Shown here: one piece after another, positions 8,989 through 9,454 of the stretch
Layout of the letters: each line of letters opens with the position of its first letter
How positions within the stretch are numbered: position 1 is the first letter of the stretch
Assembly (NCBI RefSeq): GCF_012027615.1
Contig: NZ_SNUT01000004.1
Span: 1-64,000 of the forward strand
DNA: 64,000 bases
DNA from: Thermococcus sp. 21S7
GTDB lineage: Archaea; Methanobacteriota_B; Thermococci; Thermococcales; Thermococcaceae
Direction: 5' to 3'
Made by a program: the position numbers and the translations under genes
Notes under the pieces: generated by a model
Seen by the model: the letters and a program-made list of their open reading frames with translations, nothing else
Databases searched by the model: none
Told to the model about the DNA's origin: nothing

Positions 8989-8999
8989 CTTTATATATG
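8989..8999 (+). promoter_or_regulatory. TATA box of candidate RNA and 9140 gene
   Basis: CTTTATATATG is a near-ideal archaeal TATA element. It predicts a transcript start at about 9018-9024, exactly at the beginning of the structured segment and 115-120 nt before the ATG of the next gene, a long leader for this genome. Confidence 0.7.
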
Positions 9000-9019
9000 A
9001 TAAGGCCAATGCCTACACA

Positions 9020-9100
9020 GCAGGTTCTGTCTGGGTGAACCTAAAACGGAGCGCCCGGAAGCCAGCGACAATTCTCACCCAGCGGCGCTCCCTCTGGCAA
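9020..9100 (+). ncRNA. Candidate structured RNA or leader with interleaved helices
   Basis: Three perfect complementary pairs occur in 80 nt: CTGGGTGA 9031-9038 with TCACCCAG 9075-9082; GGAGCGCC 9048-9055 with GGCGCTCC 9084-9091; and GCCAG 9061-9065 with CTGGC 9094-9098. They are interleaved, as in a pseudoknot. A competing hairpin, AGGTTC 9022-9027 with GAACCT 9037-9042, shares two bases with the first helix. A strong TATA box precedes it. It could be a riboswitch-like leader of the gene at 9140 or an independent RNA. I could not match it to a known class; it lacks C/D boxes and a convincing H/ACA layout. Confidence 0.5.
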
Positions 9101-9139
9101 GAACATATGAAATTTTGTTGATACATGGGAGGTGTTCGT

Positions 9140-9454
9140 ATGGCGATGTTCCTCGTCACCCACCGCTATTCGGATGAAGAGAGCATCAAGGCAACCAAGG
9201 AAGCGGCCGATTTCTTCAGACGGCTGCCCCTCACGGGCGATGTTGAGTTCCTCGCCTCGTACAATTTCGTCGGCGGAAGCTATACGATATGGCGGGCCAA
9301 GAACAGAGAAGCCCTTGAGGAGTACATGAAAACGATAAACGCCCCAACATTCCACAAAAACATGGAGATCACCGAAATAGTCCAGAGCTACCCTCCAACG
9401 GTTGAGTACACCATCAGACTCTGGGAGATGCTGTACCATCTCAGCGGCGGCTGA
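9140..9454 (+). CDS. Small alpha/beta protein of unknown function
   Basis: The 104-residue protein has strand MFLVTHRYSD, a helix, strand VEFLASYNFVGG, strand SYTIWRAKN, a helix (REALEEYMKTI) and a late strand MEITEIVQSY. This alternating order resembles ferredoxin-like small proteins of the DUF4242/Dabb type, but I cannot confirm a family. No membrane segment is seen. ATG 9140 is chosen because GGGAGGTG sits 4 nt before it; ATG 9125 would place the site inside the gene. Its mRNA leader contains the candidate structured RNA. Confidence 0.75.
   Translation: MAMFLVTHRYSDEESIKATKEAADFFRRLPLTGDVEFLASYNFVGGSYTIWRAKNREALEEYMKTINAPTFHKNMEITEIVQSYPPTVEYTIRLWEMLYHLSGG

Follow-up and report, generated by a model that had tools for sequence, protein, structure and literature searches.

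A conserved pseudoknotted leader RNA, most plausibly of riboswitch type, upstream of a small orphan gene in Thermococcaceae

Overview

The leader of a 104-aa orphan gene in Thermococcus sp. 21S7 almost certainly contains a conserved pseudoknotted RNA built from two interleaved helices, a and b. The element lies in the window, the whole 64,000-nt stretch of DNA analyzed here, which comes from a 2.37 Mb assembly in 48 contigs (G000). Sequence comparison suggests that it most plausibly represents a new family of pseudoknotted cis-regulatory leaders of riboswitch type in Thermococcaceae, uncatalogued as far as we found. Its leader position, its linkage to one gene and covariation of its helices support a cis-acting pseudoknot, and a cis-regulatory role is, we infer, probable. 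Ligand sensing is a putative function that we propose tentatively.

To our knowledge, archaeal examples of structured regulatory leaders are few, and the element has strong comparative support. According to a 2014 paper (PMC4247193), riboswitch or attenuator regulation had not yet been shown in vivo in archaea. Since the core of the element is delimited to 70 nt and there is one visible promoter and one gene, direct testing is feasible in genetically tractable Thermococcus. It also offers an entry point to an uncharacterized protein family.

Layout of the Element

Read directly from the sequence in the 5′ to 3′ direction, the strands follow in the order a b c a′ b′ c′ (Table 1). Helices a and b, of 8 bp each, interleave as a pseudoknot with a core of ~70 nt. 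The sequence-only reading had described two 8-bp pairings and one 5-bp pairing in this order, together with a competing 6-bp hairpin that overlaps helix a, and all of them are present in the window. As a three-helix structure, that proposal holds for a and b, which are conserved and covary, but not for c, which is not conserved.

Table 1. Features of the leader and the downstream gene in the window
Feature	Position	Strand	Basis or remark
TATA box TTTATATA	8990–8997	+	Sequence; relatives have a TATA-like box 38–49 nt before helix a
Hairpin P0, AGGTTC (9022–9027)/GAACCT (9037–9042)	9022–9042	+	Competes; overlaps the last two bases of helix a
Helix a, 5′ strand CTGGGTGA	9031–9038	+	Sequence; other clades keep it paired with an entirely different sequence
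Helix b, 5′ strand GGAGCGCC	9048–9055	+	91.8% of cells paired; two-sided changes in 5/8 pairs
Loop L2, 19 nt	9056–9074	+	Conserved A residues and UU directly 5′ of a′
Proposed helix c, GCCAG/CTGGC	9061–9065/9094–9098	+	Present in sequence; outside the conserved structure
Helix a, 3′ strand TCACCCAG	9075–9082	+	As for the helix a 5′ strand
Helix b, 3′ strand GGCGCTCC	9084–9091	+	As for the helix b 5′ strand
Single-stranded tail NUCURRCA, conserved, 3′ of b′	9092–9099	+	U 27/28, C 22/28, U 23/28
Ribosome-binding site GGAGGTG	9128–9134	+	Sequence; also precedes the gene in relatives
Orphan gene, 104 aa (predicted small acidic ferredoxin-like protein)	9140–9454	+	26 copies, 25/94 Thermococcaceae genomes

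In the UU preceding a′, one U is found in 27 of the 28 copies and the next in 22, and the NUCURRCA tail is kept even where the proposed helix c is missing. The nearly contiguous a′ and b′ strands, combined with a short L1, suggest either a hinge with helices lying side by side or one long stack bridged by a stretched L1. Both options would depart from the classical H-type layout, and this unusual loop geometry is of interest for RNA structure. The 5′ strands of both helices (9031–9055, also in relatives) are rich in purines and look like ribosome-binding sites (GGGUGA, GAGGAG, GGAG); a′ and b′ resemble the anti-Shine-Dalgarno sequence, and their predicted pairing with the real ribosome site is weak.

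The TATA box reported by the sequence-only reading is present and starts 41 nt upstream of helix a. The usual archaeal TATA spacing predicts a transcription start at ~9015–9023, placing the helices within about 8–16 nt of the 5′ end and giving a leader of about 120 nt. Its description as unusually long is fair, as the published median in T. kodakarensis is 16 nt, with about 20% of mRNAs having leaders of 50–300 nt, according to PMC4247193. No promoter is visible between the element and the gene. Since a second promoter is lacking and the RNA and gene travel together, a new small RNA transcribed on its own, also considered initially, is not favored. A coding leader or upstream ORF was rejected: the spacing between conserved anchors differs by lengths that break the frame and stop codons are spread over different frames, and the leader is non-coding in that no reading frame is conserved.

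Distribution of the Leader and Its Genes

BLASTN identified 13 clear leader homologues (the window included), all located 5′ of the same gene. A protein profile search extended this to the 26 gene copies listed in Table 1, distributed over four genera, and revealed no homologues outside Thermococcaceae in the other searched genomes of the phylum; the gene was not found on plasmids or viral contigs. The a-b-a′-b′ arrangement accompanies every copy (26/26), with helix a 38–49 nt after the TATA box; the copy in G046, missed by the automatic search, was positioned by hand with one mismatch in helix a. Across the family, L1 spans 8–17 nt and L2 14–26 nt, and the a′-to-b′ linker is mostly 1–3 nt; some registers extend it to as much as 9 nt.

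A covariance model of helix b alone recovered 28 copies in 25 genomes, comprising all 26 plus one extra each in G119 and G124. Thus, 26/28 leaders precede homologues of the 104-aa gene, and the gene is never found without the element. A second RNA model yielded no further accepted copies in 396 genomes, and the element is absent from the nine searched genomes of genus g28, which we take to be Pyrococcus. Weak model matches in G106, G117, G129, G127 and G031 (C69) were left uncounted, most of them lying in or running into protein-coding frames, as was a match in G088 that follows an ORF and was judged to be a chance hit.

The RNA and gene occur jointly in several genomic neighborhoods and therefore move as one unit. 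The gene adjoins Sec61-beta in Thermococcus and in most of genus g29, frequently ahead of S6e. G031 and G131b have it between methionine-aminopeptidase-like and CBS-domain-like genes, the latter also being found downstream in G102, and in G131a and G114 it stands beside nucleotidyltransferase-like and acetyltransferase-like genes (names other than Sec61-beta and S6e were assigned by eye).

The two extra copies are L084 (G119:C4:47517–47817) and L085 (G124:C1:263004–263102). Behind the former lies a 49-aa ORF that has a GGAGGAG ribosome site and appears to encode one membrane segment; the same ORF behind the latter is frameshifted. The 49-aa protein has distant relatives in about 21/94 Thermococcaceae genomes, and no RNA-model match accompanies the other members of this family. 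With two associated gene types in all, one confined to two close genomes, the case for a ligand regulon is thin.

Chance Pairing and Covariation

Four of 1500 random 110-nt windows from the same 64-kb sequence contained, anywhere inside, an interleaved pair as strong, so the argument from the single sequence is no more than suggestive. The nested minimum-energy fold of that sequence (z −0.43) is uninformative for a pseudoknot. With the family loop spacing imposed, 0/1000 dinucleotide shuffles match the window element; the same test on 13 other representatives gave 0 or 1/1000 in 12 cases and 17/1000 in G055, which has weaker helices. In our reading of the aligned sequences, it is conservation, rather than single-sequence statistics, that decides the reality of helices a and b. 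The search among relatives proposed by the sequence-only reading found both conservation and compensatory changes.

On a plain MAFFT alignment, which was not fitted to pairing and whose register was not chosen by it, 91.8% of helix b cells pair and 5/8 pairs show two-sided changes. The covariation score was reached by no shuffle, and sliding the partner strand cuts pairing to 37–62%. In distant relatives helix b is partly rewritten and helix a wholly so (CUGGGUGA/UCACCCAG versus AGAAGAGGAG/CUCCUCUUCU), with both remaining paired. The first of these versions of helix a characterizes the nearest clade, others carry AGAAGAGG/CCUCUUCU or GGAAGGGG/CCCCUUCU, and the extra copy of G119 has AGGAAGAGAA/UUCUCUUCCU. 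For the two helices together 89.8% of cells are paired, 13/16 pairs are doubly changed and covariation is 0.509, compared with 0.271 after shuffling and no more than 0.213 after sliding, counts that are biased upward for helix a by registers chosen by pairing in the divergent clades.

We also used a tree-conditioned null, in which the tree is kept and substitutions fall in the observed columns and branches but introduce random bases (500 runs). Helix a pairs in 92.9% of cells against 64 ± 8% under the null (0/500), helix b in 91.5% against 86 ± 3% (9/500) and both together in 92.2% against 75 ± 4% (0/500). Inside the nearest clade, covariation of helix a is no higher than in shuffles; its support, as judged from the alignment, comes from replacement between clades, where pairing guided the choice of register. 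A per-pair phylogenetic covariation test (R-scape style) found no significant pair and is powerless here because there are too few independent sequences. G-U and A-C pairs number 22 and 20, respectively, and are uninformative for strand assignment.

Helix c is 76% paired in the nearest clade and loses its partners outside it, and was rejected. Hairpin P0 is 95.8% paired in 15 nearest-clade sequences, with no more covariation than shuffles, and is not seen in other clades; it is possibly a clade-specific elaboration. Strand a makes up most of the loop of P0 (GGUUC/GAACC, 9022–9042); helix a could take a clade-specific form here, in which the P0 loop pairs with a′.

Comparison with Known RNA Families

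Rfam searches returned one chance match in the window, outside the element, at E up to 10, and tRNAs only in the loci of 16 relatives, searched with E up to 0.5. The element thus matches neither the fluoride, preQ1, SAM-II and HDV families, to which the sequence-only reading could not assign it by eye, nor any other Rfam family. The SAM-II, preQ1 and fluoride riboswitches are likewise compact pseudoknotted leaders 5′ of a presumed target gene with conserved unpaired bases. The element differs from them in lacking any Rfam match (E up to 10), in gene context and in its core of about 70 nt, near-contiguous 3′ strands and long b-to-a′ loop.

The passages of the open-access literature that we searched contain no account of the element; other Thermococcales leaders appear there (fluoride, preQ1-like sRk28, sscA). 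Among these, sRk28 and other ncRNAs derived from 5′-UTRs are conserved structured leaders of the same archaeal order, but are tied to other genes, sRk28 to a QueC-like ATPase; the searched passages of the paper describing them (PMC3124441) do not mention the element. HDV-like ribozymes share the interleaving a b a′ b′ of two main helices; in contrast, the a′–b′ linker of the element, mostly 1–3 nt, has no space for the catalytic-C linker (P4/J4-2). The single a′–b′ base is neither conserved nor a conserved C, and with no Rfam match this assignment was rejected.

Properties of the Encoded Protein

AlphaFold (pLDDT 85) models a beta-alpha-beta-beta-alpha-beta fold with a C-terminal helix; we predict a small ferredoxin-like protein of acidic character (median pI 5.3). 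Given this acidity, RNA binding is not an obvious guess for its function. Matches to solved structures are weak (E about 1e-3, TM about 0.5) and comprise dimeric alpha/beta-barrel enzymes and Lrp-type ligand-binding domains. Pfam gives weak matches below the cut-off to the SCO4226-like and DUF3303 families for a few members. For the SCO4226-like nickel-responsive family (PF14026), 6/22 members do so, with a best E of 4e-4, and the curated cut-off is exceeded in no genome. The nickel ligands of the SCO4226-like protein are listed in PMC4186839; nickel as a guess for the ligand of the RNA was dropped, the PF14026 scores being below the cut-off. PADLOC detected no defense systems (three members), and no Pfam toxin family was found among 22 members.

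Proposed Mechanism and Alternative Explanations

On balance, we favor a pseudoknotted cis-acting leader of the mRNA of the 104-aa protein, acting as a riboswitch-type switch. Transcription would begin just 5′ of the element, and the nascent RNA would fold helices a and b. In this fold a′ and b′ would nearly abut, 19 loop nucleotides would separate b from a′, and the conserved NUCURRCA tail would stay single-stranded. A small molecule, ion or cellular factor may then stabilize the fold and thereby alter how the gene, which starts some 40 nt further on, is expressed. Such a ligand or factor is favored by the conserved unpaired bases (tail U and loop U, each in 27/28 copies) and by the association with a second gene. 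The sequence-only proposal of a pseudoknotted riboswitch-type element is thus supported by leader position, compensatory changes, gene linkage and the lack of an Rfam match, with its sensing part presumed. We put forward a more specific version even more tentatively: a new archaeal class of pseudoknot riboswitches, limited to Thermococcaceae, sensing the ligand of a mobile ferredoxin-like protein and also preceding a second, unrelated small membrane-protein gene.

Predicted mean accessibility of the ribosome site without and with the pseudoknot is 0.23 and 0.26 at 37 °C, and 0.51 and 0.54 at 80 °C. As it hardly depends on the pseudoknot, no expression platform is visible, and sequestration of the site by a′ or b′ is unsupported. 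Attenuation at a U-run is not supported either: the run is short and missing in several relatives, with no conserved U-run terminator. No terminator-like site was found on the + strand between the element and the gene.

The strict linkage of RNA and gene would also fit autoregulation, with the leader serving as the binding site of the downstream protein, which would repress or stabilize its own mRNA. Ferredoxin-like folds do include RNA binders; however, this protein is acidic, its fold is matched best by enzymes that act on small molecules and by ligand-binding domains, and the element also precedes an unrelated ORF, making autoregulation rather unlikely. We regard as unlikely, too, a constitutive, ligand-free element that shields the mRNA from 5′–3′ decay or sets ribosome loading. 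The fold does lie close to the predicted 5′ end (about 8–16 nt) and the accessibility prediction found no switching partner, but the unpaired conserved bases and the gene-specific, patchy distribution suggest more than stability.

That patchy distribution and the co-travel of RNA and small protein gene recall a processed or trans-acting RNA, including an RNA-protein pair of the type III toxin-antitoxin kind moving as a unit. ToxI and CptI are also pseudoknot RNAs directly 5′ of a small, co-mobile protein gene, the pseudoknot fold of ToxI-type antitoxins being described in PMC5086642. Unlike them, the element is a single copy rather than tandem repeats, has no terminator-like site before the gene, and its gene product matches no toxin or defense family and has a different predicted fold; we consider this explanation improbable. 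A reading without RNA, with the inverted repeats acting as operator sites in DNA or the pairing arising by chance in GC-rich sequence, is very improbable. Although the lone sequence is only mildly unusual (4/1500 windows) and G-U pairs are no commoner than A-C, a DNA-binding protein would keep sequence rather than complementarity, yet helix a is rewritten and still paired, and spacing-restricted shuffles almost never match.

Variation Around the Gene

Outside the Sec61-beta/S6e setting, an 84-nt tRNA gene lies about 0.3–1.4 kb from the leader at three loci (L063, L064 and L073), which might fit integration beside tRNA genes. The gene looks broken or shortened in L061/L013 (G044), L070 (G124) and L072 (G118) with the pseudoknot intact, through an in-frame TAG, an in-frame TAA or missing segments. 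In g29 the interval between the gene and S6e varies (L068, L069, L070 and L072) and holds different inserted genes, either an HTH-type regulator together with an ORF resembling a membrane protein, or an ORF resembling a transporter, which suggests from gene order that this interval may be an insertion hot spot.
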